From a virus: DNA of 27,506 bases. Of the stretch, positions 4,936 to 22,359 are shown piece after piece (positions within the stretch are counted from its first letter, which is position 1; every line of letters starts with the position of its first letter). Made by a program: the position numbers and the translations under genes. Location: the IMG/VR virus record IMGVR_UViG_3300010158_000271, positions 1-27,506 of that record; one strand, 5' to 3'. The notes under the pieces are model-generated. The model worked only from the letters and a program-made list of their open reading frames with translations. It was not told where the DNA came from and made no database searches.

Positions 4936-7494
4936 ATGAATAAAATAATAGCACTTTTTCCGGGAAGATTTCAACCCTTTGGAAAACATCACGCAGCTTC
5001 ATTTATGTGGCTTCAAAACAAATTTGGAAAAGAAAATACTTATATCGTAACATCAAATAAAACTGATGATAAATCACCATTCAATTTCGCCGAAAAGAAA
5101 GCCATTATAGAGCTTTATGGTATTAACCCTGATAATATTATTGAAGTTAAGAATCCGTACAACCCAGTTGAGCTATATAACCAATTTGATGGTAATACTA
5201 CCGATGCAGTAATAATGGTTGGCGATAAAGATATGGGAAATGATCCTAGATTTAAAATAGGACCTAAAAAAGATGGTAGTCTTAGCTTTTTTCAAGACTA
5301 TAAATCTAACCAAAATAATATGCAACCGTTATCTAAGCATGGTTATTTACTTACTGGCCCTCATATATCTTTAAAAATTCCGGACGTTGATAAAGAAATG
5401 TCAGGGTCAATGATAAGGCAAGTATTGGGAGATACTACAAAAACTAGAGAAGAAAAAACTCAATTATTTAAAGATATATTTGGATGGTATTCTGATAAGA
5501 TGGCTAACTATATATTTGATAAACTAGAAAATACAATGACAGAAGCATTTAGTAAAGATTGGTGGTTAGAAGAACTGCTAAAAGAAGATTGTTGGGATGG
5601 ATATAAACAAGTTGGTATGAAGAAAAAAGGAAAAAGGCAAGTTCCTAATTGTGTACCTATTAGTGAAGGCGGTAATGTATTTGGAACGACGGGTCCAATA
5701 GCAAAATCTGATATAGAACCTACGTTAGAAGTGTTTTCAGATAGACTTGCTAAATTATTTCCTGCAAAAGCAGCGAGCTTTAAGCAATTTGAGAAATTAG
5801 GGTCTGTAGGTAAAAAGGAAATATCAGGAGACATTGATTTAGCATATGATGTTAAGAACTTCTTCCCTGATGGCAAAACACCAGATCTTAAAGGATGGGG
5901 TTTAGATGAAAATAAATATAATGAATTAGTTGCTGGCTTTACTAAAAGAGCTAAGAATGCATCTCCAGAAAAAATTAACTTAAGAGCAATAATAGCATTA
6001 GTAGGAGACAAAATTAATAATGCTTACGATGATATTGAAGTAGATACAAAAGGATCAGGATCAGGTGCATTATTCTGTAGTATTCAACAATATGATTCAA
6101 ATAAAACTCCACTTCCTAAATATGTGCAAGCAGATATTAATATAGGTAATTTAGATTGGCTTACATTTAGTTATTATTCTAATACTTATGCTGGTAATGT
6201 AAAAGGTCTTCACAGAACTCAATTAATGTTATCATTATTTGCGAATAAGAATTATACATTTGGACATGGAACGGGAGTAGTAGATAAAGAAACAGGAAAT
6301 CAAGTTGCAAGTAATTCTCAAGAAGCAATTGATTTATTGAATAGAATATATGGATTTAATTTAAGTAAAGACATTTTAAATGATTATTTTAAATTAGAGG
6401 AATTCCTTAAAGCAAATTTATCTCAAGAAGAATATAATGCTATTATGGATAGATATTTAAAGATATTAGATTCTACCAGAACAGACATTCCTGATAATTT
6501 ACAAGATTATTGGATCGCTAATCAAGCAAGATTGGGATTAAAAGGCAAGTTTTTACCTGATGATTCTAAATTATTATCATATCAAATATTATCAGAATCC
6601 GGATCTATTGGCGCAGACAGAATTCCAAGTATGGCAGTTAAAGCGACGGTTGATTCATTTGTTAATAAAGTTTTAAAGCCCTATCCATTATATAAAGGCT
6701 ATAAAATTACCGGGTCATATAATATAATTCCAAAAGATGAAAATGGTGAAGTAGTTGGAGGTCATGAAAAGAAAGAAGGGCATGGAGATATTGATTTAGT
6801 AATTGAATTAACCGGTGATAAATCTAATACAAAACAAATAAAAGCTGATTTTGCCGATTATTTAAAATCACTTCCTGATAATGTTATTGTTCCATTTAGA
6901 AGTGGCAGACACGTAGGAAAGAAAACAGCAGGAACCGGAGATATAGTAATCACTCAATATCCGATAGAAGGTTATCCAGATTTAACAGTTCAAATAGATA
7001 ACATGATAGTTGTATCTCCAGAAGAATTAACATACAGATCTACATTCTTAGATATTCCAGGAGAGCGTCAAGCATTATTAATTGGATTAGCTAAAGCAAT
7101 GTGTATTGAAGAAAATCCATATGATATCTTTAAAAGGTTAAATATTACAAATATACCGGAACTAGAAGATAACCAAGAATTTGAATTTGTTCTATCTCCA
7201 AAAGGATTGACATTAAGAGTTGTTACTTTGGATGGTTTTAAAGAGCTAAACAGAACAGATATTTGGTCATCATATAAATGGTCCGATGTAGAAAAATTAT
7301 TTCAAAATTACGATATAAACGGTAGCTTTGAAGAGCTATTATATGATATAGTAAGAAAAGTTAAGAACACTAGATCTAAAAATAGAATCAAAGGAACGTT
7401 TAAATCTATGTTAGTAATTAATTCTGGCGAAGCAGGTACTCCGAAAGGAAATGCAAAATTAAGAGCGTTAGATAAAGTAGCGGATGTACTATAA
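4936..7494 (+). CDS. Three-domain nucleotidyltransferase: HIGH-type nucleotidylyltransferase plus two Pol-beta-type domains
   Basis: The 852-residue protein starts with a HIGH-superfamily nucleotidylyltransferase (NadR/NMNAT-like): ALFPGRFQPFGKHH at 6-19 and SGSMIRQVL at 156-164, standing for the usual GRFQPxHxGH and ISSTxIR motifs. Residues 210-241 form a linker, CWDGYKQVGMKKKG then VPNCVP, resembling a tag I recall from marine T4-like phage proteins. A Pol-beta-type motif set follows: LGSVGKKEISGDIDLAYD (288-305) with a likely third acid in YVQADINIG (D400). A second set has ITGSYN (591-596), GHGDIDLVIEL (615-625) and a candidate third acid in VQIDNM (D688). HIGH enzymes transfer NMP to small molecules; Pol-beta-fold enzymes transfer nucleotides to RNA, protein or small molecules. 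The substrate cannot be read from sequence. The gene sits between a structural gene and the packaging module, so it is probably expressed with late genes. The second and third domain calls rest on short motifs. Confidence 0.75.
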   Translation: MNKIIALFPGRFQPFGKHHAASFMWLQNKFGKENTYIVTSNKTDDKSPFNFAEKKAIIELYGINPDNIIEVKNPYNPVELYNQFDGNTTDAVIMVGDKDMGNDPRFKIGPKKDGSLSFFQDYKSNQNNMQPLSKHGYLLTGPHISLKIPDVDKEMSGSMIRQVLGDTTKTREEKTQLFKDIFGWYSDKMANYIFDKLENTMTEAFSKDWWLEELLKEDCWDGYKQVGMKKKGKRQVPNCVPISEGGNVFGTTGPIAKSDIEPTLEVFSDRLAKLFPAKAASFKQFEKLGSVGKKEISGDIDLAYDVKNFFPDGKTPDLKGWGLDENKYNELVAGFTKRAKNASPEKINLRAIIALVGDKINNAYDDIEVDTKGSGSGALFCSIQQYDSNKTPLPKYVQADINIGNLDWLTFSYYSNTYAGNVKGLHRTQLMLSLFANKNYTFGHGTGVVDKETGNQVASNSQEAIDLLNRIYGFNLSKDILNDYFKLEEFLKANLSQEEYNAIMDRYLKILDSTRTDIPDNLQDYWIANQARLGLKGKFLPDDSKLLSYQILSESGSIGADRIPSMAVKATVDSFVNKVLKPYPLYKGYKITGSYNIIPKDENGEVVGGHEKKEGHGDIDLVIELTGDKSNTKQIKADFADYLKSLPDNVIVPFRSGRHVGKKTAGTGDIVITQYPIEGYPDLTVQIDNMIVVSPEELTYRSTFLDIPGERQALLIGLAKAMCIEENPYDIFKRLNITNIPELEDNQEFEFVLSPKGLTLRVVTLDGFKELNRTDIWSSYKWSDVEKLFQNYDINGSFEELLYDIVRKVKNTRSKNRIKGTFKSMLVINSGEAGTPKGNAKLRALDKVADVL

Positions 7495-10508: not shown

Positions 10509-12335
10509 ATGTCATTAATAGATAAATCACTTTCAGCAAGATTAGGTAGACTGTTTTCAAATAACGTTATTGTACGAAGAGTAGGTGGCGGAAAAGGATT
10601 GAAAGTAATAGATACTGATAGATTACAATCTGCAGGTAACCTCGAACAATCTAAATATGTAGATAGATTTACTAGACTACATGGAATAAAACCTAGTATA
10701 TCTACTTATAACAATAACTATAATTATCAAAGTTCTAGAACAGAGCTTTATACTGATTACGAAATAATGGATATGGATTCTATTATTTCAGCAGCATTAG
10801 ATATTTATTCTGATGAAGCAACTCGTAAAAATGAATATGATGAAATATTAACTATCAAAAGTTCTGATGAAACTATTAAAAAAGTTTTAGAGAATTTATT
10901 CTATGATATTTTAAATGTAGAGTTTAATTTATGGCCGTGGATTAGAAGTATGAATAAATATGGTGATATGTATTTATATTTAGATATTAGAGAAGAAATT
11001 GGTATTGTAAATGTAACTCCATTATCAGCATATGAAGTAATTAGAGAAGAAGGCACGGATCCAAATAATCCTTATCACGTTCAATTCTCTATTATGGGCA
11101 ATAATAAAATTAAGTATAAGAATTACGAGATTGCTCATTTCCGTTTATTAACAGATTCAAACTTTTTACCTTACGGTAAGTCAATGTTAGAGCCCGCTCG
11201 TAAAGTTTGGAAACAGCTTACGATGATGGAAGATGCGATGTTAATTCATCGTGTAATGAGAGCCCCTGAAAGACGTATTTTTAAAATTGACGTTGGAAAT
11301 ATTCCTACTAGTGAAGTTGATAACTATATGCAGCAAATCATGAATAAAATGAAGAAGCAACCATATATTGATCAACAAACAGGTGATTATGATTTAAAAT
11401 TCAATTTAATGAATATGCTAGAGGATTTTTATCTTCCGGTAAGAGGAAATCAATCAGGAACTGAAATCGATACTTTATCAGGTATGGAATTTACCGGTAT
11501 AGAAGATATTGAATATTTAAAGAATAGAATGTTAGCAGGATTAAAGATTCCTAAAGCATTTTTAACTTTTGATGAAGGTATATCAGGTAAAGCTTTATTA
11601 GCTGCTGAAGATGTTCGTTTTGCTAGAACAGTAGAAAGATTTCAAAGAATCGTTGTTTCAGAGCTTACTAAAATAGCAGTTATTCATTTATTCTCTCAAG
11701 GATATAAAGACGAAGATTTAGTTAATTTTGAAATAGCATTGACTACTCCATCAATTGTTTACGAGCAAGAATTACTTGCATTATGGAAAGAAAAGATTGA
11801 GCTAGCAAAAGAAATGCAAGAATCTAAATTATTATCTGAAGGATGGATTTATAAGCATGTATTTAAATTATCTGACAATGAATGGCAAGATGAAAGAGAT
11901 GCTGTATTAGATGATATGAAAAATAAATTCCGTCAAACTCAAATCGAAGAAGAAGGGAATGATCCATTACTTACAGGAGAATCATTTGGTACTCCGCATG
12001 ATATTGCTTCATTACATGTAAGTAAAAGAAATGCCGGTGTAGAAACAGAGCCAAAAAATAATGGAAGACCAAAAGGTGGTGGTTCAGCATATGGCACTGA
12101 TGCTCATATATTTGGAAGAGATCCAATAGGCTCAACCTCATTTAAACCTGCGATAGATTTATCAGTAAAAGAAAATGTAAATAAATCTAATAGCAAAGAT
12201 GCTGCAAAGAGATTAGGATTCGTAATCAATGATCACGCCAAGTCAAAGAAATTAATATTGGAAAGTATAAAAATGCCAAAGAAGTCTGACCCAGATGCAG
12301 GTACTTTTTTAGATGAATCTAATATTTCTGAATGA
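10509..12335 (+). CDS. gp20: Portal vertex protein (T4 gp20-like)
   Basis: The 608-residue protein forms the dodecameric portal, the DNA entry pore and assembly start point of the head. It is recognised by the family's conserved blocks: MDMDSIISAALDIYSDEAT near residue 90, ATRKNEYDEIL, LIHRVMRAPERRIFKIDVG in the wing/stem region, and GLKIPKAFLTFDEG followed by GKALLAAEDVRFARTVERFQ. It is longer than T4 gp20 (524), mainly through a polar C-terminal tail holding two candidate prohead-protease sites: ILE|S at 583-586 and LDE|S at 601-604. A perfect 8-bp inverted repeat begins at the last base of the stop codon. It follows the terminase gene and precedes the prohead-core cluster. Confidence 0.93.
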   Translation: MSLIDKSLSARLGRLFSNNVIVRRVGGGKGLKVIDTDRLQSAGNLEQSKYVDRFTRLHGIKPSISTYNNNYNYQSSRTELYTDYEIMDMDSIISAALDIYSDEATRKNEYDEILTIKSSDETIKKVLENLFYDILNVEFNLWPWIRSMNKYGDMYLYLDIREEIGIVNVTPLSAYEVIREEGTDPNNPYHVQFSIMGNNKIKYKNYEIAHFRLLTDSNFLPYGKSMLEPARKVWKQLTMMEDAMLIHRVMRAPERRIFKIDVGNIPTSEVDNYMQQIMNKMKKQPYIDQQTGDYDLKFNLMNMLEDFYLPVRGNQSGTEIDTLSGMEFTGIEDIEYLKNRMLAGLKIPKAFLTFDEGISGKALLAAEDVRFARTVERFQRIVVSELTKIAVIHLFSQGYKDEDLVNFEIALTTPSIVYEQELLALWKEKIELAKEMQESKLLSEGWIYKHVFKLSDNEWQDERDAVLDDMKNKFRQTQIEEEGNDPLLTGESFGTPHDIASLHVSKRNAGVETEPKNNGRPKGGGSAYGTDAHIFGRDPIGSTSFKPAIDLSVKENVNKSNSKDAAKRLGFVINDHAKSKKLILESIKMPKKSDPDAGTFLDESNISE

Positions 12336-12353
12336 TTTGTTAACGTAACAAAT
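12335..12353 (+). repeat. 8-bp inverted repeat with 3-base loop after the portal gene
   Basis: ATTTGTTA is separated by ACG from its exact reverse complement TAACAAAT. It starts at the last base of the gp20 stop codon. There is no run of T after it, so a classical intrinsic terminator is not supported. It could be an RNA hairpin that slows 3' decay or tunes expression of the next gene, or it could be chance. Confidence 0.35.
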
Positions 12354-12390
12354 AATTATTAATGTAATATATACATAGTACTAATACTGT

Positions 12391-13245
12391 ATGAAAAAAA
12401 TTAAACATAATAAGCTTCGTAACACTGGTATAATATTTGAATTATTAGTAAGACAAATTACTGCTGATATTTTGAATAATAAGGATTCGAAGGCAATTAA
12501 TATTGTAAAAGAATACTTTTCTAATAAATCTAGCTTATCTCATGAGTTAAAATTATATCAAACGTTAACTAATGAAAAATTATCTAGCGATTGGAAAGCT
12601 ACCCAATTATTAGAAGCAGTTATAAAGTCTAGAAAGAATGTTAATGAAGAGTCTTTAGAAAAACTTAAGTATAGTTTAATTAAGCGTATTCGCGAAAGCT
12701 ATAAATTAGAAGACTTTTTTCAACATAAAGTAAATAATTATAAAGTATTAGCAAGTATATATAAGTTATTTGAATATGCTGAAGCTGATAATCCTGTTGA
12801 AGTAGTAGATTCTAAATCTTGTATATTTGAACATTTAATCAGAAAACCAGAAGATTTACCTAGTGCTGAAAGCTTAATTGAATCGGAGTTTGGCAAAGAA
12901 GATAAAGATATTAGAGTATTATCATATAAAATATTATTAGAGAAGTTTAATAATAAGTATAATGGCCTTAATCCAAATCAAAAGCAATTATTAAAGCTAT
13001 ATATCACAAATTCTCCTAATGATAAGAATGCATTATATGAATATGTAATTACATCTATAAAGACTATTAAGACTGATTTAGATAAAAGTATTAAGAATTG
13101 TGATAATCAAGTAGTTCAAATCAAATTATCTGAGGTATCAAATTTACTTACAACCATTACTGAGTCTAAAATTATAAAAGATAATCACGTATTATCTTTA
13201 TTAAGATATTTTGAATTAGTAAAAGAGCTTAAAAAAATTAACTAG
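12391..13245 (+). CDS. Hypothetical head-cluster protein of T4-like phages
   Basis: The 284-residue helical protein begins MKKIKHNKLRNTGIIFELLVRQ, a start I recall from uncharacterised proteins next to head genes in marine T4-like phages. It is Lys/Glu/Leu-rich with no signal peptide, membrane segment or catalytic motif. It lies between the portal and prohead-protease genes and ends one base before the next gene, so it is probably co-translated. An ITE|S site (256-259) matches the prohead-protease rule. A prohead-core or assembly role is inferred from position only. Confidence 0.75.
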   Translation: MKKIKHNKLRNTGIIFELLVRQITADILNNKDSKAINIVKEYFSNKSSLSHELKLYQTLTNEKLSSDWKATQLLEAVIKSRKNVNEESLEKLKYSLIKRIRESYKLEDFFQHKVNNYKVLASIYKLFEYAEADNPVEVVDSKSCIFEHLIRKPEDLPSAESLIESEFGKEDKDIRVLSYKILLEKFNNKYNGLNPNQKQLLKLYITNSPNDKNALYEYVITSIKTIKTDLDKSIKNCDNQVVQIKLSEVSNLLTTITESKIIKDNHVLSLLRYFELVKELKKIN

Positions 13246-13246
13246 A

Positions 13247-13714
13247 ATGGCATTCAAAACACTTTTACAGGAAATCGAGGATAAGTTCAATGAAGTAAAT
13301 CTTTATGATATAGAAGGCAATGATAATGGCGGAAAATATTATGTTGAGGTACTTAAGCCCAACATTTACCTAGCAAAACAAAAATTACAGAAAAATATAT
13401 TTATTCTCAGAGTAATGCGAGACGATATTTTACATGCATTAGGTAATGGCGTATATAAATCTAATTACAAGAATATTATAGAGGAATTACTTAACATTTT
13501 TAAGAATAATGATATTAAATTTGATTCTAATGTAGACGAGTTAGCTGAAGAATCTAATTCAAGCGGAGCAGGTGCATATTTAACACCTAATGCTTTTGGT
13601 CATGAAGCACCAGAAAAAGCTATTACCGCTTTTGGCATGAAAAAGGTTAATATGAAAAATACAAATACTAAAGCTTTACAAGAATCTGTGTATAAAAGAA
13701 TAATGAATCTATAA
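13247..13714 (+). CDS. Hypothetical head-cluster protein
   Basis: The 155-residue protein has a helical N-terminal two thirds with FILRVMRDDILHALG near the centre. A Gly/Ser-rich segment follows, SSGAGAYLTPNAFG (about 110-123), similar in style to flexible segments I recall in head-associated proteins of marine T4-like phages. The end, KALQESVYKRIMNL, holds an LQE|S match (144-147) to the T4 prohead-protease consensus. Cleavage there would release a 9-residue peptide. No function is recognised. It starts 1 base after the preceding gene. Confidence 0.7.
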   Translation: MAFKTLLQEIEDKFNEVNLYDIEGNDNGGKYYVEVLKPNIYLAKQKLQKNIFILRVMRDDILHALGNGVYKSNYKNIIEELLNIFKNNDIKFDSNVDELAEESNSSGAGAYLTPNAFGHEAPEKAITAFGMKKVNMKNTNTKALQESVYKRIMNL

Positions 13715-13733
13715 ACAAAAAAACTATAATAAA

Positions 13734-14909
13734 ATGAGACTTAATAATAAAATAACAATTAAAGGTGATATTTTAAAAATCTTTGAAGAAGTAGATATGC
13801 ATAATGGCTTTGAGATAGGAGATTTTGTAAAAATAGACCCTAATGCTGCCCAACAGTCTGGATTAGATCCTAACAAACCATATGAAATACAAGGATTTGT
13901 AGATTATGGTAAAGGTCTGAGTAAATCTATTAATGCTATACTTGATAAAGAATTATATAAACCACATATATATCCTCCTAAAGGAATTATATCAGTTAAG
14001 TTTATAACTAAAGAAGTAAGTGAAGGATCATTCAATCCTATGAAAGGCGGTGCAGATAAATATTCTACAATAGATAAAGACGTTCGTGGATTTATTCATG
14101 TATTTGCATATCCAGATCCTAAAGGAATTGAGACTATTGACGGATTAAATCAATGGGAAACAGAAGATGCATCAAATCGTGAAGTTCATTTTGTAGGCAA
14201 TTTTAAGGAAGCTAATGCAGCAGCAAATTCATTTATTAATGAAGCTATAAAACAATATCTAGAAGAAGGAGAAGATGATTTTGATTTTGATGATGAAAAC
14301 TTTTCAGATCCAGTGATAGATGGTGAAGATGATAGGGATGATGATTATGATGATAGCATAGATGTTTATAGCGATGAATATGAAATGTTTGAAAATATGA
14401 ATGAAGCTAAAAAAGAAAAATCTGATCCTGCAGACAAAAAGAAAGCTGATAAAACTAATTACGGTCATAAAGATATGTCTGATGTAGATATGGTAAATCC
14501 ATACGAACTTAAAAAAGGTATCAGAATAGAAATGGTTGATACAGAAGATTATGTTAAGGCAATGGATAAAGCAGTTAAGAAATTAAAGAAAGATCCTATG
14601 TTTTATAGTAATTTAATTGCCAATTCTAAACAAGTAAAGGCAAATAAAAGATCAGATCTTCCTAAAGAAGTTAAAGATAAGAAATTAAATAAGACATCTG
14701 ATAAAATGAAAGACAAAGCAAATGGAATGGAAGTATCTAAGAAAGATGCTACTAAGAAAAATGCTAATGATACTTTAAATAAAAAGGAAATGGCCAAAGG
14801 CAAACCTAAAGGAGTTAAGGAAATGGATAAGCCAGGAAAAGAAACAAAAGCTAAACTAAAAGAAAGCATTAGTATTTTTAATAGCCTTAAGAAGTTATTG
14901 TTATCATAA
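13734..14909 (+). CDS. Charge-segregated putative prohead-core protein
   Basis: The 391-residue protein has a folded-looking N-terminal region (1-170, with GDFVKIDP and GFIHVFAYPDPKG). An extremely acidic stretch follows at about 174-220 (runs such as EDDRDDDYDD), then a Lys-rich tail to about 375. It ends in a short amphipathic helix, SIFNSLKKLLLS. Just before that helix is LKE|S (375-378), a match to the gp21 cleavage rule. T4 builds its prohead core partly from small, highly charged proteins (gp67, gp68) coded beside gene 21, and this gene sits directly upstream of gene 21. No homology to those is claimed; the comparison is positional and compositional. No catalytic motif is visible. Confidence 0.7.
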   Translation: MRLNNKITIKGDILKIFEEVDMHNGFEIGDFVKIDPNAAQQSGLDPNKPYEIQGFVDYGKGLSKSINAILDKELYKPHIYPPKGIISVKFITKEVSEGSFNPMKGGADKYSTIDKDVRGFIHVFAYPDPKGIETIDGLNQWETEDASNREVHFVGNFKEANAAANSFINEAIKQYLEEGEDDFDFDDENFSDPVIDGEDDRDDDYDDSIDVYSDEYEMFENMNEAKKEKSDPADKKKADKTNYGHKDMSDVDMVNPYELKKGIRIEMVDTEDYVKAMDKAVKKLKKDPMFYSNLIANSKQVKANKRSDLPKEVKDKKLNKTSDKMKDKANGMEVSKKDATKKNANDTLNKKEMAKGKPKGVKEMDKPGKETKAKLKESISIFNSLKKLLLS

Positions 14910-14927
14910 TTATATTAAATAAGAACT

Positions 14928-15533
14928 ATGAATACTAATTTACTTATAGATTATCTTCCGTTTGAAGTAACTCCTCAAATGATTAATGAATCTCTAGAAA
15001 AAAATGGAGGTCGTTTAATCGTGCAAGGTACTTTACAACGAGCTGATGCTTATAATCATAATATGAGGTCTTATCCTCGTGCTATATTAGAGCGCGAAGC
15101 TAATAGATATTCTTCGCAAGAAGTTAAAGAAAGAAGAGCATTAGGAGAATTAGATCATCCAGACTCATCAGTAATTAACTTAAATAACGTTTCTCATAAC
15201 ATAACTGAGATGCATTTTGAAGGCGATGATTTAGTTGGTACGGTTGAAATTTTAGGAACTCCGTCAGGAAATATCTTAAAAGAATTATTCAAAGCCGGTA
15301 TTAAATTAGGGATTAGCTCAAGAGGATTAGGTTCAGTAAAACCAATTGACGAACAAGGACATGTACAAGTAGGAGATGATTTTAATTTATTATGCTTTGA
15401 TTTTGTATCTAGCCCATCGACTCAAGGAGCATATCTAAGACCTATTAATGAAGGCTCGGGACAACAAGCAGGTGCAAATAAATATTATTCTGTAGAAAAG
15501 ATTATTACAGATATTATATCGGATTTTAAATAA
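14928..15533 (+). CDS. gp21: Prohead core serine protease (T4 gp21-like)
   Basis: The 201-residue enzyme is the maturation protease of T4-type heads, a herpesvirus-assemblin-like serine protease. It degrades the core and trims capsid proteins at (L/I)-x-E sites. Key blocks are visible: NMRSYPRAILERE (45-57), RRALGELDHPDS (69-80) with the catalytic His at 77, and KLGISSRGLGSV (126-137) with the catalytic Ser at 130 or 131. It is close to T4 gp21 in length (212). Two sites fit self-processing, INE|S (19-22) and INE|G (173-176); the second would remove about 26 C-terminal residues. It sits 18 bases after the charged core protein and 7 bases before the next head-cluster gene. Confidence 0.93.
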   Translation: MNTNLLIDYLPFEVTPQMINESLEKNGGRLIVQGTLQRADAYNHNMRSYPRAILEREANRYSSQEVKERRALGELDHPDSSVINLNNVSHNITEMHFEGDDLVGTVEILGTPSGNILKELFKAGIKLGISSRGLGSVKPIDEQGHVQVGDDFNLLCFDFVSSPSTQGAYLRPINEGSGQQAGANKYYSVEKIITDIISDFK

Positions 15534-15540
15534 CATAAAA

Positions 15541-16014
15541 ATGTCAAAAGATAAAAATATAAAACTTAAGAGTCTTTTAAAAGAAGCATTCGGTGCTTTA
15601 GGTGTTGTAACGCATGCTCATCCAAATCGTAAAAGATTACAAGAGGCAGAGCCAGGAATGCCAGGAGCGCCTGTACCTACTAGACCAAGCGTTCAAACGG
15701 CTAGACCTCAACAAAGACCTACTCCGCCAGCTAGACCACAAGTAAGACCAATGGCAAATGACGTTCCAGAAGAACCTCAGGAAGCACCTGCTCCACCGAC
15801 ACCTAAGACACTTAATTATAAAGTGCAACCAGGATTTAAAGTAGAGTTTGAAGGAAAGCCTGGTCAATACTATATTATTAGAATCATGAATACCGCAATG
15901 ACTAATTTCTTAGTTGTTAATGATAAAGTAGGAAAACCAATTCAATTTATAAATGTTGGAATCGAAAGAATAGATTCAGACGAAAAAGGTAAACCATATA
16001 AAGGAGAATTATAA
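15541..16014 (+). CDS. Hypothetical head-cluster protein with Pro/Arg-rich linker
   Basis: The 157-residue protein has three parts. A short N-terminal helix, IKLKSLLKEAFGALG, contains LKE|A (13-16). A Pro/Arg-rich linker covers about 37-92, with ARPQQRPTPPARPQVRP. A C-terminal beta domain follows (LNYKVQPGFKVEFEGKPG, then YYIIRIMNTAMTNFLVV). It resembles no named family I recognise. Lying between gp21 and another core-type gene and carrying a prohead-protease consensus near its start, it is probably a processed internal or core protein. It ends 1 base before the next gene. Confidence 0.7.
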   Translation: MSKDKNIKLKSLLKEAFGALGVVTHAHPNRKRLQEAEPGMPGAPVPTRPSVQTARPQQRPTPPARPQVRPMANDVPEEPQEAPAPPTPKTLNYKVQPGFKVEFEGKPGQYYIIRIMNTAMTNFLVVNDKVGKPIQFINVGIERIDSDEKGKPYKGEL

Positions 16015-16015
16015 T

Positions 16016-16570
16016 ATGAACAGCCCAATAAGAAAAATAATAAGAGAATCTGGTATGGAAGAAATGTCACAAGAAAAGAAAAAATTATCTCTAGAAGAAA
16101 AGAAAGCAGTAATGGAAATGATTGGTAAGTTTAATGAATATGGTAAGCATGTTTATAGAGCTGATGAATTACGTAAAATTACTAACGAAATGAAAGATGT
16201 AGTAAGTAAAGCAAAAGATATGACTTTACAGGAAACAGAAGGAAGTTTTGATGGTATTACAGTAGGCCGTCATATGAAAGGATTAGATAGCTCAATGCAA
16301 TTATTTGAAAAAACTGCAGGAGAAATTAATACATTACAGCAAAGATTAGAAAGCGTTTATGAAGATATCGGAAATGTATTAAATAAATATTATAAGATAA
16401 ATGAAAATGAATTAGATGCTGTAGGGCATGAAGACCAAGATATTAATAATGATGGTAAAGTAGATAATCAAGATGATTATTTAAAGAATAGAAGAAGTGT
16501 TATTTCGCATGAGATAAATGAAAGAGATGCAAATAGATTTAAAAAATTAGCAGGTATTACTAAGAAATAA
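16016..16570 (+). CDS. Coiled-coil prohead-core candidate with EF-hand-like loop and RFKKLAG tail
   Basis: The 184-residue protein is largely helical (about 20-130, with LQQRLESVYEDIGNVLNKYY). Residues 142-153, DINNDGKVDNQD, fit a calcium-binding EF-hand/dockerin-type loop: acidic or Asn at positions 1, 3, 5, 9 and 12, Gly at 6 and a hydrophobic residue at 8. The C-terminus DANRFKKLAGITKK shares RFKKLAG with the scaffold protein encoded next. IRE|S (9-12) near the start fits the gp21 rule. AAAGGAG lies upstream of the ATG but inside the previous gene. A terminator follows directly. A scaffold or core role is inferred from the shared tail and position. Confidence 0.75.
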   Translation: MNSPIRKIIRESGMEEMSQEKKKLSLEEKKAVMEMIGKFNEYGKHVYRADELRKITNEMKDVVSKAKDMTLQETEGSFDGITVGRHMKGLDSSMQLFEKTAGEINTLQQRLESVYEDIGNVLNKYYKINENELDAVGHEDQDINNDGKVDNQDDYLKNRRSVISHEINERDANRFKKLAGITKK

Positions 16571-16572
16571 TT

Positions 16573-16602
16573 AAAAAGCTCTATTAAGTTAGGGCTTTTT
16601 TA
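16573..16602 (+). terminator. Intrinsic terminator after the gp21 cluster
   Basis: A 9-bp stem, AAAAAGCTC (16573-16581) with GGGCTTTTT (16592-16600, one T-G pair), encloses a 10-base loop and ends in a T run. It lies 2 bases after a stop codon and should end transcription coming from the gp20-gp21 cluster. The A/T-rich stem could also work on the opposite strand, though no gene there needs it. Confidence 0.75.
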
Positions 16603-16675
16603 CTGAATATACGAAAAATAATTAAAAAGTAATACTGTTTTTATACATTCGGTAATATATATATTAAATTCCAAT

Positions 16676-16695
16676 ATCCTATTTTAATATAGGAT
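16676..16695 (+). repeat. 7-bp inverted repeat upstream of the scaffold gene
   Basis: ATCCTAT and ATAGGAT are separated by TTTAAT in the 213-base gap before gp22, 88 bases upstream of its ATG. It could be a 5'-leader hairpin or a protein-binding site. TATATTAAATT just upstream (16660-16670) recurs at 19702-19712 before phoH. The rest of the gap shows no gene and no exact TATAAATA. AT-rich sequence makes chance repeats likely. Confidence 0.3.
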
Positions 16696-16783
16696 TCGAA
16701 TATCTTAAGTACCGCTATTGTAGTTTCCTAATAACTATATCGAATAAATTTCGCGGACAACAAAAAATCACAACAAATAAAAA

Positions 16784-17752
16784 ATGTCAAACTCAGACTT
16801 ATTAAAAGAAGCTATTGCTGATGCAAGAGCAGTAAAAGAAACAGCTATCGCTAACGCTAAATTAGCATTAGAAGAAGCTTTCCAACCAAGAATCCAATCT
16901 ATGATTTCTCAACGTTTAGAGGAAGAAGGAGAAGAAGAATTTGGAGATGAAGAAGAAATGCCAATAGATGGCGAAATGGAACCAGGTATAGAAGGCGGAG
17001 AAGACCGTGACTTAAACTTAGGTGGTCAAGCATATCACGTAGACAATGCAGGTGAAGCTTTGCCAGGACAAGAAACAGCACCAGAAGGTGAAGAATTTCC
17101 AGCAGAAGAAGAAGAACTAGTAGATGAATACGATTTATCAGAAATTTTACGTCAGTTAGATGAAGAAGAAGATGGATTAGAAGACACTCCTGAAGAAGAT
17201 GTAGCAGGAACGAGCAAAGAGCCATTCGGTTCACAAGAAGGCCCGGGTTCAGAAGATTTAGACGAAGAAATCGACATCGATGCTTTATTAGAAGAATTGA
17301 TGGGTGATGACAAAGAAGAAATGGAAGAATCTGATATGGATCATGATTTCAAAAGTCCTAAAGACAAAGAAGAAATTATGCAAGAAATTGCAGGATTAAA
17401 AAATGAATTAGAAGAAGCTTATAATGCTATTAAAATAATGAAGTCTAGCTTAAACGAAGTTAATATGCTTAATGCTAAATTATTATTTACTAATAAATTA
17501 TTTAAAGCTCATTCATTAAATGAATCACAAAAAATTAAAGTAATAGATACTTTCGATCGTGCTAGAACAATTAGAGAAGTTAAATTAGTTTATACTACTT
17601 TATCAGAATCATTTGCTAGTAAGAAAACTTTAGTAAGAGAATCTATTGCAAGTAAACCAGTTGCGTCAACAAGACCAGCTAAACAAATTATTTTATCTGA
17701 AGGCGATCAAATTGCTGCAAGATTTAAAAAATTAGCAGGTTTAGGTAAATAA
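16784..17752 (+). CDS. gp22: Prohead scaffold protein (T4 gp22-like)
   Basis: The 322-residue protein is the expected major scaffold, around which the shell forms and which gp21 later degrades. It has a helical N-terminus with LKE|A (7-10). A very acidic, Glu-rich stretch covers about 46-187. The conserved helical region is at 195-280, with LKNELEEAY, NMLNAKLLFTNKLFKAH and DRARTIREVKLVYTTLSE. The C-terminal tail ILSEGDQIAARFKKLAGLGK contains LSE|G (304-307). Position immediately before gp23 and this composition match gp22 of marine T4-like phages; T4 gp22 itself is 269 residues. RFKKLAG is shared with the upstream gene at 16016. The leader is A-rich with no Shine-Dalgarno sequence. Confidence 0.88.
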   Translation: MSNSDLLKEAIADARAVKETAIANAKLALEEAFQPRIQSMISQRLEEEGEEEFGDEEEMPIDGEMEPGIEGGEDRDLNLGGQAYHVDNAGEALPGQETAPEGEEFPAEEEELVDEYDLSEILRQLDEEEDGLEDTPEEDVAGTSKEPFGSQEGPGSEDLDEEIDIDALLEELMGDDKEEMEESDMDHDFKSPKDKEEIMQEIAGLKNELEEAYNAIKIMKSSLNEVNMLNAKLLFTNKLFKAHSLNESQKIKVIDTFDRARTIREVKLVYTTLSESFASKKTLVRESIASKPVASTRPAKQIILSEGDQIAARFKKLAGLGK

Positions 17753-17796
17753 TTAAATAATTAACAATTAAAAACAAAAAAACAAAATATATTACT

Positions 17797-19542
17797 ATGA
17801 GTAATTTAAATGCAATTCAAAAGATCGTTTCTTCTACGCAAGATAGATCATTCCAACTTTTAGAAGAATCTAAAGGTTTAATCAATAAATGGGGTAAAAC
17901 CGGTTTATTAGAAGGTGTTGATAGCGAGTATGATAAAGCTAGCATATCAATCTTATTAGAAAATCAAGCTAAGCAGTTAATCACTGAATCTAGCAGAACA
18001 GGTACAGCAGCTGGCGCAGAAGAATGGTCAGGTGTAGCTTTACCTTTAGTACGTCGTATTTTCAGCGAAATCGCTGCAAAAGACTTCGTTAGTGTTCAAC
18101 CAATGTCTTTACCATCAGGTCTAGTATTTTACTTAGATTTCAAATATGGTACTACAAACAATGCAGGTTTTTCTACTACAAATACTTCACAGTCACCAAG
18201 TAATCCTGGTTACCAAAACAATTCAGTATTTGGTGTTACAGAAAATACAGGTGATCCAAGCCAAGGTCTTTATGGTGCAGGTAGATTTGGGTATTCAATC
18301 AATACCGTTTCTAGTTCAGCATTAGTTTCAGGATCAACTCCTTCTAGTACTGCTTATGCAACTGGTTCACTTGTAGCATCTGATTACAATTATGATACAA
18401 GATTCTATAATACTTATTCTGCATCAATTGCAGCAGCAGCTTCAACCGTAAAAACAGTTACAATTTCTTCAGCATCAATTTCTAACTTTGATTTCGAAGG
18501 TATTAGATCATTTAACTTATCTGGTTCTGCTGGTGTAGTTACAGTATTCCCTCAGTTTACTAGAATAAACAGCGATAATTCACAAATTACTTTCGTAGTA
18601 TCAGCTTCAGCACCTGCAGCATTAGCAGGTATTAATGCAGCAGCAGGTATTACAGTATTCTACGCAGTTCAGCCTAGTGCTTACGGTCGTGGTGATTTTG
18701 AAGCTGGTGCAGTAAATAATGGCGGTTATTCTACTACAAATGCTGGTGCAGTTGATGTTAACGTTAACATTCCTGAAATCAACGTTGAATTACGTAGTGA
18801 GCCAATCGTTGCTAAGACTCGTAAATTAAAAGCTATCTGGACTCCAGAATTTGCTCAAGATTTAAATGCTTATCACGCTATCGATGCTGAGGCTGAATTA
18901 ACTTCAATGTTATCTGAATATATTTCTCAAGAAATTGATTTAGAAATTTTAGATATGTTGATTCAAAATGCAGTAACAGTTGATGCTTGGTCAGCAGTAT
19001 TAGGTACTACAGTAGATGTAAATGCAGCTGGTCAAACAGTATTAGTTTCTAGTGCTCAGACAGCAGCAGCTACGGGTGCATTCTACAATCAACAAACTTG
19101 GTTCCAAACTTTAGGAACTAAAATCCAAAAGGTATCTAACAAAATTCACCAAAAAACAATGCGTGGTGGTGCTAACTTCTTAGTTTGCTCTCCTGACGTT
19201 GCTACTATATTAGAATCTATCTCAGGTTATGCTGCAGATACTAATGGTGATAAAATGCAATTTGCGATGGGTGTACAAAAAGTTGGTATGATGAATAATC
19301 GTTTCCAAGTTTATAAAAATCCTTATATGTTAGAAAGCACTATTTTAATGGGTTACCGTGGTACTCAATTCTTAGAAACAGGTGCAGTTTATGCTCCTTA
19401 TGTTCCTTTGATTATGACTCCTTTGGTTTACGATCCAAATAACTTTACTCCTAGAAAAGGTGTAATGACACGTTATGCTAAGAAGATAGTTCGTCCAGAA
19501 TTTTATGGTTTGATTAGAATCACTGATTTAAACAGAATCTAA
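17797..19542 (+). CDS. gp23: Major capsid protein (T4 gp23-like)
   Basis: The 581-residue protein builds the hexamers of the head shell (HK97 fold). Recognisable blocks include ILLENQAKQLITE near 52-64, PLVRRIFSEIAAKDFVSVQP at about 83-102, the central ELRSEPIVAKTRKLKAIWTP, then YISQEIDLEILDMLI and a C-terminal MTPLVYDPNNFTPRKGV. I62-T63-E64|S65 fits the gp21 consensus almost exactly where T4 gp23 is cut after residue 65, so the mature protein probably starts at S65. Residues about 120-300 form a Gly/Ser/Ala/Thr-rich region that may be the insertion domain and explains the length above T4's 521. It lies 44 bases after the scaffold gene and is followed by a strong terminator. Confidence 0.95.
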   Translation: MSNLNAIQKIVSSTQDRSFQLLEESKGLINKWGKTGLLEGVDSEYDKASISILLENQAKQLITESSRTGTAAGAEEWSGVALPLVRRIFSEIAAKDFVSVQPMSLPSGLVFYLDFKYGTTNNAGFSTTNTSQSPSNPGYQNNSVFGVTENTGDPSQGLYGAGRFGYSINTVSSSALVSGSTPSSTAYATGSLVASDYNYDTRFYNTYSASIAAAASTVKTVTISSASISNFDFEGIRSFNLSGSAGVVTVFPQFTRINSDNSQITFVVSASAPAALAGINAAAGITVFYAVQPSAYGRGDFEAGAVNNGGYSTTNAGAVDVNVNIPEINVELRSEPIVAKTRKLKAIWTPEFAQDLNAYHAIDAEAELTSMLSEYISQEIDLEILDMLIQNAVTVDAWSAVLGTTVDVNAAGQTVLVSSAQTAAATGAFYNQQTWFQTLGTKIQKVSNKIHQKTMRGGANFLVCSPDVATILESISGYAADTNGDKMQFAMGVQKVGMMNNRFQVYKNPYMLESTILMGYRGTQFLETGAVYAPYVPLIMTPLVYDPNNFTPRKGVMTRYAKKIVRPEFYGLIRITDLNRI

Positions 19543-20819: not shown

Positions 20820-21986
20820 ATGAGTGGATTAACTATCGATATTGCGATATGGCAAGGATTACCTATTGGAACAGCATCAGGGTCTACTCCATTTGGATAT
20901 TTTGATTCTGACGCGCAATTTTTATCAGATGCGCCTAAAGTTGCAGACTTTTGTGCAAGAAGATTAGGATATCCTATGATGGATGTAGAGCTTCAATCTG
21001 GATCATTCTTTGCTTGTTTCGAGCAAGCTACATCAGAGTTTGGAAATATCATTAACGAATATAATGTTGTTGATAATTTTATTAATCTTCAAGGATCTTC
21101 AATAGGTACTACAACAAATATATCTCAAACAAATATTGCTCCGAACTTAGGAAGAGTACTTCAAATAGCTAAAGAATATGGTTCTGAAGCAGGTGTAGGA
21201 GGAAGATTAGCTTGGAAAACAGGTTCATTAAGTATATATACAGGACAACAAAATTATAATATTAATACTTTATTTAGGGATATAGTTCATCCTAGTGAAA
21301 GTATTGAAATTAAAAGAATATTTCATGATGGCCCTCCCGCTATTGTAAGATACTTTGATCCTTTCGTAGGAACAGGTATGGGGTCACAACAAATGCTGCA
21401 ATCTTTTGGTTGGGGAAGTTATTCTCCAGGAGTATCATTTTTAATGATGCCAATGTATTCTGATTTATTAAGATTACAAGCAATTGAATTTAATGACCAA
21501 ATAAGAAGGTCATCATATTCATTTGAATTAATTGGTAATCAATTAAAGTTATTTCCTATACCGACATACGATTTTAAATTGTTCTTTCAATATATATTAG
21601 AGTCAGATAGAAGTTCATTAAGTAATATTACTACATCAGGAGTTGTTTCTGATATGAGTAATGCTCCATTCCTTAAACTTCAATATACTAAAATAAATGA
21701 TATTGGAAAGCAATGGATATTAAAGCATACTTTAGCATTAGCAAAGGAAACTTTAGGCAATGTTCGTAATAAATATTCATCAATCCCTATTCCAAATTCA
21801 GAAATAACCCTTAATGGACAGGATTTAGTAAGCCAAGGAAGGGAAGAGCAAACAACATTAGTAGAACAATTAAGAGCAACGTTAGATAAAGTATCGCGTC
21901 AAGCTCAATTGGAAAAACAAAAAAGCGAGAATGATTCTATTATCGAAACTTTAAACAAGATACCTCTCAAAATTTATGTGGGGTAG
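20820..21986 (+). CDS. Neck protein, gp13-like candidate
   Basis: The 388-residue structural protein contains CARRLGYPMMDVELQ (about 45-59), a type of block seen in gp13-like head-completion proteins. The C-terminal region, with QWILKHTLALAKETLGNVRN then YSSIPIPNSEITLNGQDLV, resembles gp13-like neck proteins of marine T4-like phages as I recall them. It ends in a helical EQTTLVEQLRATLDKVSRQ. gp13 and gp14 join the filled head to the tail. Marine relatives encode these proteins near the capsid genes, which supports the call. A TATATAAAAGAG sequence lies just upstream of the ATG. Homology is judged from memory of short motifs, so the number assignment is tentative while the structural call is firm. 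Confidence 0.65.
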   Translation: MSGLTIDIAIWQGLPIGTASGSTPFGYFDSDAQFLSDAPKVADFCARRLGYPMMDVELQSGSFFACFEQATSEFGNIINEYNVVDNFINLQGSSIGTTTNISQTNIAPNLGRVLQIAKEYGSEAGVGGRLAWKTGSLSIYTGQQNYNINTLFRDIVHPSESIEIKRIFHDGPPAIVRYFDPFVGTGMGSQQMLQSFGWGSYSPGVSFLMMPMYSDLLRLQAIEFNDQIRRSSYSFELIGNQLKLFPIPTYDFKLFFQYILESDRSSLSNITTSGVVSDMSNAPFLKLQYTKINDIGKQWILKHTLALAKETLGNVRNKYSSIPIPNSEITLNGQDLVSQGREEQTTLVEQLRATLDKVSRQAQLEKQKSENDSIIETLNKIPLKIYVG

Positions 21987-21996
21987 AAATAATACT

Positions 21997-22359
21997 ATGA
22001 AAATAAAAAAGATACTTAAAGAAGAGCAACTTGATTTTTATGAGTGTATGATAATCGTGAAGGTTAAATCAGAAAAAACTCAATTATCAGATGCATACGA
22101 TGAAATTCGTGCAGTACCTTATATCGTAACTGCGCAACCAAAGCATTCAGATCAAGTAGAAAAAAGAAATAATGCTATATATGATTACGCTCAATTAAAG
22201 ATTAAGTTTTTATCATATAAAGGAGATCCTTTAGCTTCATTATTTGATATTAAAGAAACTGCTACAAAAGGATTGGGCGATTCTATGAAATATAAAGTGT
22301 ATGGTTTAGTAGGCTTTATAGTTAGAGAAGATACAATACAATTAATAGAGAAAAAATAA
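21997..22359 (+). CDS. Hypothetical small protein in the neck cluster
   Basis: I choose the ATG at 21997 (120 residues) over the in-frame ATG at 21976. The later start follows the previous stop by 10 bases and begins MKIKKILKEEQ, a common start style for proteins of this phage group. The earlier one would overlap the previous gene. The protein alternates strands and helices (YECMIIVKVK, DAYDEIRAVPYIVTA, YDYAQLKIKFL, KYKVYGLVGFIV), suggesting a small alpha/beta fold of ferredoxin-like type. It has no recognised family or catalytic motif. Position suggests an assembly or connector role. Confidence 0.65.
   Translation: MKIKKILKEEQLDFYECMIIVKVKSEKTQLSDAYDEIRAVPYIVTAQPKHSDQVEKRNNAIYDYAQLKIKFLSYKGDPLASLFDIKETATKGLGDSMKYKVYGLVGFIVREDTIQLIEKK

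Follow-up and report, generated by a model that had tools for sequence, protein, structure and literature searches.

What do the short (L/I)-x-E-(S/A/G) sites near the ends of the head proteins contribute to the phage behind IMG/VR virus record IMGVR_UViG_3300010158_000271? The window, meaning the whole stretch analyzed here (positions 1 to 27,506), is a 27.5-kb virus record of a T4-like phage with the gene order TerL, portal protein gp20, three orphans, prohead protease gp21, two further orphans, an acidic gp22-like scaffold protein, gp23, PhoH and a head-tail adaptor. The initial annotation placed matches to the T4 gp21 cleavage rule near the termini of nearly every protein in this head cluster and proposed that short terminal peptides sort proteins into the core before the anchor is cut. 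In T4, as described in PMC9026906, gp21 follows the rule L/I-x-E, gp22, gp23, gp24 and the internal proteins are cut at such sites, targeting propeptides measure 10 to 19 residues, and sorting by a terminal peptide followed by cutting is the established capsid-targeting mechanism. We put at roughly three in four (0.74) the probability that the terminal [LI]xE[SAG] sites are mostly gp21 substrates that delimit removable targeting peptides. The sequences display enrichment of the sites, portability of the peptides, conservation that ends at the glutamate, a peptide shared between scaffold and cargo, and the presence of gp21.

All sites listed initially are present in the head-cluster proteins, and further terminal sites were found in gene 15541 (E35), gp22 (E31) and gp23 (E24 and E39). 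Most of the listed sites lie close to an end as claimed, with the exception of E64 of gp23, which is more than 40 residues away. Inspection of the nine head genes reveals 26 sites versus 7.4 in whole-protein shuffles, in keeping with the earlier estimate of fewer than one per random protein. Fifteen sites lie within 40 residues of an end versus 1.9 in shuffles, and all nine genes hold at least one terminal site versus 1.7 (P = 2e-4 for each comparison, which is the floor for 5000 shuffles). The terminal enrichment is thus not reproduced by shuffling, the check that had been proposed for it. Placing the same number of sites at random within the head genes gives 6.9 terminal sites versus the 15 observed (P = 3.5e-4), and a shuffle confined to the 18 terminal 40-residue segments gives 1.7 (P = 5e-5). 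Thirteen other genes taken from the window hold 7 sites versus 8.2 expected, where none is terminal versus 1.7. The terminal enrichment is qualified by the internal 40-residue segments of the head genes, which are enriched as well (11 versus 4.9, or 2.2-fold).

The same analysis was extended to 80 related gp21 loci, the longer of which keep the core order of genes; these loci and all homolog counts include near-duplicates (e.g., L032/L035 and L051/L053). Terminal sites exceed expectation in gp21 (119 versus 16.7), gp22 (144 versus 17.3) and gp23 (31 versus 3.6), and in 69 portals they number 42 versus 12.8, yet the total of portal sites is 66 versus 96. TerL (2 versus 6.8), PhoH (0 versus 2.6) and gp13 fall below expectation, unassigned genes upstream of the portal (33 versus 14.2) and downstream of gp23 (22 versus 9.8) are enriched, and the family of gene 16016 shows no clear enrichment (13 versus 9.7). 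At the ends of 688 head-region open reading frames (ORFs), called simply as the longest non-overlapping frames with ATG preferred, [LI]xE[SAG] is enriched 4.3-fold, compared with 1.35-fold for an aspartate version, 1.07-fold for lysine, 0.78-fold for glutamine and 0.89-fold for the reversed motif; altered motifs span 0.4- to 1.6-fold, [LI]xE[LIV] excepted. The ends of 132 non-head ORFs give 0.55-fold. Chance or composition would account for the sites if acidic, helical, scaffold-like proteins were simply rich in LxE tetrapeptides, and the 2.2-fold internal enrichment and the unconserved sites of genes 12391 and 16016, which may be chance matches, agree with this explanation. Whole-protein and local shuffles, the placement test, the motif variants and the neighboring-gene controls all fail to reproduce the enrichment, such that, for the complete set, the explanation is largely refuted and in our judgment very improbable, where single sites may still be chance.

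The tag IKLKSLLKE|A of gene 15541 (+ strand, as are all genes described here) led us to portable terminal peptides in uncultivated phages. Relatives of the window contain many unrelated short genes that start with MIKLKxLLxE, hereafter tag A. All counts from the scans for this tag, with its glutamate fixed or free, and for tags B and C below are minimum values, and the matches listed are perhaps no random sample. A DNA scan returned at least 143 matches in at least 120 stretches; the matches listed, up to four per stretch, comprise 139 ORFs of at least 40 residues, 129 of them with a stop codon within 25 codons upstream. At least 77 families are represented among 135 proteins, where families are single-link blastp clusters at 1e-3, counted within each tag and possibly joined by remote homology. 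Aligned representatives have only the tag in common, its invariant residues being set by the search itself, and the A1 and A2 consensus keeps nothing past the tag. A scrambled tag A found 59 stretches in the entire viral collection, with 11 ORFs and 2 near an upstream stop. A stricter pattern that demanded Ala or Gly after the glutamate found 19 stretches in 257 Gb of cellular genomes, with 8 ORFs and 2 near a stop as plausible starts, one of which shows weak blastp similarity to two cargo proteins of phages (E 0.001 and 0.002).

The glutamate itself was examined with residue 10 left free, using MIKLKD[LF][LF] only and 117 of the 120 stretches. Among the matches listed, Glu occupies position 10 in 95 of 105 and Asp never does, against a background of 6% for Glu, and conservation stops there; most members of 54 of 62 families carry E10. 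An Asp-for-Glu scan was rejected as a clean control, many of its matches being tag variants with a glutamate at position 9 or an ITE site soon after, and was replaced by the scrambled tag and the free-residue scan. A candidate origin of tag A as a copy of the gp22 N-terminus was likewise rejected, where only xLLKE|A is common to both. One could suppose that the N-terminal peptides are merely AT-rich leaders for translation start or scars of recombination, as their richness in AT codons would suggest. Synonymous codons nevertheless vary at tag-A positions while the residues stay, a peptide of scrambled but identical composition is rarely found and rarely opens a gene, residue 10 is Glu and never Asp in the unbiased set, and tag C, described below, is found at C-termini. 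We therefore regard leaders or scars as scarcely credible.

A second, longer peptide, MKxSELKQLIKEEIxKxLxE (tag B), was searched with residues set only up to position 13. At least 138 matches were found, with 133 ORFs and at least 78 families among 121 proteins. Beyond the searched positions, the matches listed carry Glu at position 20 in 84 of 116 (background 7%) and L or I at position 18 in 69%; counted by family, Glu 20 is present in 52 of 78. The residue following LxE is S, A or G in 34 of 72 of these, and in 37 of 52 the first [LI]xE[SAG] site is the one at E20. One tag-B protein has a weak ADP-ribosyltransferase-like match directly after the tag, below the Pfam cut-off, and this protein had no match in named phages.

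The third peptide belongs to the scaffold. The C-terminus of gp22 is R[FM][KQ]KLAG[IL] or a near form in 40 of 41 homologs (tag C), and in the window both gp22 and gene 16016 carry this tail. A scan for RFKKLAG placed 119 of 119 matches within 13 residues of a stop, and 92 of the 96 proteins among the matches listed are of the gp22 family. A looser expression applied to 10236 ORFs gave 181 C-terminal, 12 N-terminal and 1 internal match versus 0 in shuffles, where the C-terminal count is inflated by 119 loci fetched by that very motif. The variant RMQKLAGI (121 matches listed) stands at the C-terminus in 93, at the N-terminus in 26 and elsewhere in 2. Among the matches listed, 85 of 90 C-terminal proteins fall in one family, that of gp22; the N-terminal matches comprise 24 distinct proteins in at least 22 families and take the form MKKQILSEEFxRMQKLAGIITE, which closely resembles gp22 tails, for instance ISEVSDAVRRMQKLAGII. 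The position of the glutamate depends on the end that carries the tag: [LI]xE lies at -7 from a C-terminal tag C in 72 of 91 and at +10 from an N-terminal one in 17 of 25 (matches listed). ORFs other than gp22 with a C-terminal tag have [LIVM]xE within 14 residues upstream of it in 16 of 16 cases and [LI]xE in 13 of 16, where one of the 16 (L821) is a probable gp22 fragment and three look like homologs of each other. Several of these ORFs bear an N-terminal tag as well. With regard to covariation of tag C with the gp22 tail of the same genome, eight records hold both. Among homologs of gene 16016, only the nearest carry tag C (1 of 50 by regular expression, with KFKRLAGIK in L004 and L005).

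Tagged genes accumulate within single genomes. Scored with a combined tag A and B matrix, the nearest long relative has 11 tagged ORFs (0.15 expected), another has 10 (0.15), a 40-kb piece of LR756508 has 8 (0.02) and Flavobacterium phage immuto has 4 (0.12). Immuto carries a tag-C protein (KNV73_gp083), a tag-A-like gene (gp231) and the tag-B-like genes gp114, gp095 and gp080. At least one tagged ORF is present in all 13 records examined, of which G011, G044, G045 and G055 were chosen by a tag-scan match; one gene of G001 had been used to train the matrix, and the matches of G045 and G055 include gp22 itself. Locus L023 holds five tagged genes between gp21 and gp22, three of them adjacent. 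Peptidase S77, the gp21 family, was sought in contigs of at least 20 kb, comprising 47 tag-A and 34 tag-B contigs (the first 80 rows out of 120 listed) and all 34 Asp-variant and 26 scrambled contigs, where the tag-A and Asp sets have two contigs in common and L466 (tag B) was left out, being the same as G001, which has gp21. The protease is present in 28 of 47 tag-A contigs versus 5 of 26 scrambled ones (one-sided P = 8e-4); above 100 kb it is found in 6 of 8 tag-A, 2 of 4 scrambled and 4 of 4 tag-B contigs.

Carriers of the tags include proteins with matches to Mom, a CCA-adding enzyme, an exonuclease, an AAA/Zeta-type kinase, SprT and other metallopeptidases, and a deoxyribonucleotidase. 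Pfam families are matched by no more than 16 of 77 representatives for tag A and 5 of 78 for tag B. PADLOC assigned four families with one member each to the 77 tag-A representatives, of nuclease type plus one candidate. For two tagged enzymes, the alignments with phage homologs in the listed rows begin no earlier than residues 12 to 33, and the tag is therefore an added part. No virion proteomics for immuto or Mel-JY01 was found in the literature. Might the peptides instead address proteins to other places, such as the baseplate or a replication compartment, with a convergent likeness to capsid targeting? The DNA- or RNA-active enzymes among the cargo (Mom-like, tRNA nucleotidyltransferase, exonuclease), a tag-B-like gene beside baseplate genes in immuto and the 21 of 34 tag-B contigs, mostly fragments, in which S77 was not found are consistent with such an address. 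Against it stand a tag C that is the scaffold's own C-terminus, a tag A in the T4 capsid-targeting register and tagged genes inside the head cluster too, as in L023, and we hold another destination to be improbable.

The peptides can be compared directly with those of T4. Inspection of the T4 genome (NC_000866) shows MKTYQEFIAE|A at the start of both ipII and ipIII, MAKINELLRE|S in gp24 and ITE|A at position 19 in ipI. By eye, tag A has hydrophobic residues at positions 4, 7 and 8 and E10 in register with ipII, ipIII and gp24. Judged from its gp21-type glutamate end, these hydrophobic positions and its unrelated carriers, the peptide resembles the T4 targeting type in sequence. Residues 4 and 7 of the T4 peptide serve targeting and residues 8 and 10 processing, where Asp at position 10 inhibits processing and spares targeting, according to PMC9026906. 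Like the targeting sequence of IPI, IPII, IPIII and Alt, tags A and B are putative short N-terminal propeptides that end in an LxE glutamate on unrelated proteins, and gp21 is present in both groups. Tag A shares the 10-residue length and the hydrophobic positions with T4, whereas the layout of tag B differs. The three T4 internal protein genes checked carry two peptides, compared with three types here on at least 77, at least 78 and at least 22 families, enzymes included. Further unlike T4, some proteins here have tags at both ends, and one type is copied from the scaffold C-terminus. T4 Alt, an ADP-ribosyltransferase that enters the host by ejection and is processed at both termini (PMC9026906), may be a counterpart in kind of the weakly ADP-ribosyltransferase-like tag-B protein and of the proteins here that bear tags at both ends. 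As a separate observation, the T4 DNA-end protector gp2 (L399 16062-16886) starts with MAIFQIINE|S and so has a gp21-type site at residue 9. The phiKZ-like phages and SPN3US, according to PMC5694885, also possess a glutamate-specific prohead protease (A-x-E or S-x-E), terminal propeptides on many head and ejected proteins, and C-terminal processing of the protease. Their propeptides mostly exceed 100 residues, SPN3US uses A-x-E, and their portal is cut N-terminally, in contrast to the phages here, where the possible portal sites are C-terminal.

If the terminal sites are mostly gp21 substrates, a terminal peptide would dock its protein to the scaffold core during prohead assembly. Once the shell had closed, gp21 would cut on the body side and free the mature protein within the head, and such a protein may then be injected when the next cell is infected. 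Each step, from docking through cleavage and packaging to injection, is one that we infer. The removable peptides would belong to scaffold, shell and core or cargo proteins. In tags A (MIKLKxLLxE|) and B (MKxSELKQLIKEEIxKxLxE|), the docking element and the cut site would be merged in one N-terminal propeptide. Tag C would be the gp22 C-terminal peptide copied to either end of other proteins, with a cut site that separates tag from body, such that this phage group would use at least three types of portable peptide. The proposed sorting to the core and cutting of the anchor fits the T4 mechanism, the tags ending at LxE and the body-side site of tag C, and it fails for several single sites. We are evenly divided on a broader proposal, namely that aquatic T4-like phages use a protein-delivery code in which portable tags, one of them copied from the scaffold tail, load unrelated proteins into the prohead core from either end and are removed by the prohead protease on the body side; up to about ten tagged proteins per genome were seen here. 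The mechanism is known from T4, and the tags here are most likely a wider, scaffold-copying form of it. No description of tags A, B and C or of the reuse of the scaffold tail was found in the PMC full-text literature searched, a scope outside which most subscription papers and preprints lie. If this proposal is true, a signature of 10 to 20 residues would allow prediction of the packaged and probably injected proteome of uncultivated T4-like phages, and Mom-like proteins, tRNA nucleotidyltransferase, kinase-like proteins, metallopeptidases and the ADP-ribosyltransferase-like protein would be candidates for packaging. Cargo would enter the scaffold by wearing the scaffold's own end peptide, terminal processing would gain a possible role, and portable short tags would serve for loading proteins into phage heads.

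A number of observations weigh against reading the sites as cleaved targeting peptides. The sites E258 of gene 12391 (kept in 5 of 74 homologs), E11 of gene 16016 (1 of 52) and E24 of gp23 (3 of 30) are not conserved, and because of its low count ITE|S of gene 12391 is probably no cut site. An internal ILES of gp23 (E473) is kept in 26 of 30, and conservation alone is therefore no sign of cleavage. The small control families g22893 (3 versus 1.0) and g8126 (2 versus 0.4) exceed expectation, and [LI]xE[LIV] is enriched 2.25-fold at head-gene ends and 1.94-fold in non-head genes. S, A or G follows the glutamate in 31 to 47% versus 19%, a mild bias. With the tag-A matrix, TerL, which is no core protein, passes in 9 of 52, gp22 N-termini pass in 0 of 41, T4 ipIII fails at -8.7 and T4 gp24 lies just over the threshold at 3.85, and the T4 likeness is therefore one of register, not of letters. 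Peptidase S77 is present in 16 of 34 Asp-variant contigs (P = 0.02 versus scrambled) and in 13 of 34 tag-B contigs (P = 0.09 versus scrambled). Tag B also matches an HK97-type major head protein that starts with a tag-B-like helix (L426 2321-3502), and the tag-B pattern is therefore not cargo-specific; this helix may reflect chance or a related role of the N-terminal domain. The tag-B-like gene in immuto mentioned above, gp114, adjoins the baseplate genes. According to PMC5694885, T4 portal gp20 is unprocessed, and in the NC_000866 sequence T4 gp20 has no [LI]xE[SAG] within 60 residues of either end.

Some of these points would be explained if the terminal motifs were docking helices only, whose L, I and E residues bind a scaffold or partner on one helix face and mostly go uncut. 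That is to say, the mild bias at P1', the end enrichment of [LI]xE[LIV] and also of [LI]xE[DE], the conserved ILES within the gp23 body and the resemblance by eye of tag B to an amphipathic helix would all be expected. This explanation contrasts with the conservation in tags A and B that ends at the glutamate, with the LxE of tag C that shifts to the body side when the tag switches end, and with the cutting of T4 gp22, gp23, gp24 and internal proteins at such sites (PMC9026906). We judge docking without cleavage to be unlikely, though the most plausible of the alternatives.

Returning to the window with cleaved targeting peptides as the preferred reading, conservation differs among individual sites, and position conservation held for most gp22 sites, gp23 E39 and gp21 E21, failed for genes 12391 and 16016 and was partial or confined to near relatives elsewhere. 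The claim that nearly every listed site is a cut site does not stand, given the failure of genes 12391 and 16016 and the restriction of those in genes 13247 and 13734 to near relatives. Within the phage collection, immuto, Microcystis phage Mel-JY01 and an uncultured phage of 484 kb come closest to the window. The prohead protease gene (14928..15533; Pfam PF03420, 96.7 bits, cut-off 27) is by family profile and conserved region a Peptidase S77, with 32% identity to T4 gp21 across 158 columns and with GELxHP and SSRGLGS common to both, regions that we take to hold the catalytic residues. Its site INE|S (E21, 14982-14993) is kept in 81 of 82 homologs and INE|G (E175, 15444-15455) in 14 of 82, where P3 is often M, V or T in the rows shown for other relatives. 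Autocleavage of gp21 is a major gap in the T4 literature according to PMC9026906.

The scaffold gene (16784..17752) is named gp22-like by its position before gp23, its acidic composition and its many conserved sites; no gp22 family is among its Pfam or PHROGs matches up to E 0.1. Its sites LKE|A (E9, 16802-16813), LEE|A (E31, 16868-16879), E275 and LSE|G (E306, 17693-17704) are kept in 39, 43, 39 and 36 of 43 homologs, respectively, and tag C (RFKKLAGL) lies at 17720-17743. The major capsid protein gp23 (17797..19542; Pfam Gp23, 264 bits) has LEE|S (E24, 17860-17871), LLE|G (E39, 17905-17916) and ITE|S (E64, 17980-17991), where E39 is kept in 26 and E64 in 12 of 30 homologs. The gp20-like portal (10509..12335; Pfam Portal_T4, 247 bits) carries ILE|S (E585, 12255-12266) and LDE|S (E603, 12309-12320), both exact in 16 of 68 homologs.

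Of the orphans, gene 12391 (12391..13245), in the interval between portal and gp21, is conserved, with 72 homologous ORFs in relatives and 6 phage records, and holds ITE|S at 13156-13167. Gene 13247 (13247..13714) has a C-terminal LQE|S (E146, 13676-13687) kept in 3 of 18 homologs and an N-terminus, AFKTLLQE, that scores 9.93 with the tag-A matrix (1% threshold 3.64). Gene 13734 (13734..14909) ends with LKE|S (E377, 14856-14867) 14 residues before its C-terminus, kept in 3 of 4 homologs. Gene 15541 (15541..16014), a candidate cargo or core protein, has the highest tag-A score (21.96) of 22 window genes scored; E15 of its tag (15559-15588) is kept in 4 of 4 homologs, near relatives only, and a second site, LQE|A (E35), lies at 15637-15648. 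Gene 16016 (16016..16570), another putative core or cargo protein, has IRE|S (E11) at 16040-16051 and the C-terminal tag C with INE|RDANRFKKLAGITKK and RFKKLAGI at 16535-16558. It also contains an EF-hand or dockerin-like stretch, DINNDGKVDNQDDYLKNRR, common to other phage proteins through PHROGs 38880 and 4359.

Elsewhere in the window, an NMN-adenylyltransferase-like protein (4936-7494) has an internal tag-like LEELLKE, after which come a CWxxYKQxGMKxKGxRxVPNCV motif and ISE|G. The motif stretch matches PHROGs 4359, 9737, 727 and 38880, and by eye a similar motif is also seen behind tag A in cargo proteins of L149 and L242. Outside the head cluster, the gene at 21976-22359 would start, from an internal ATG, with the tag-A-like MKIKKILKE|E (score 4.58). 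In Mel-JY01, L120 10276-12718 contains two similar-looking tag-A proteins (ISDRVWHLTT.. and ISDRVWHVTQ..) with two genes between them, the first of which proteins has no Pfam match, and L121 12014-21813 is a long run of hypothetical genes of ~140 to 280 residues that are possibly paralogs.

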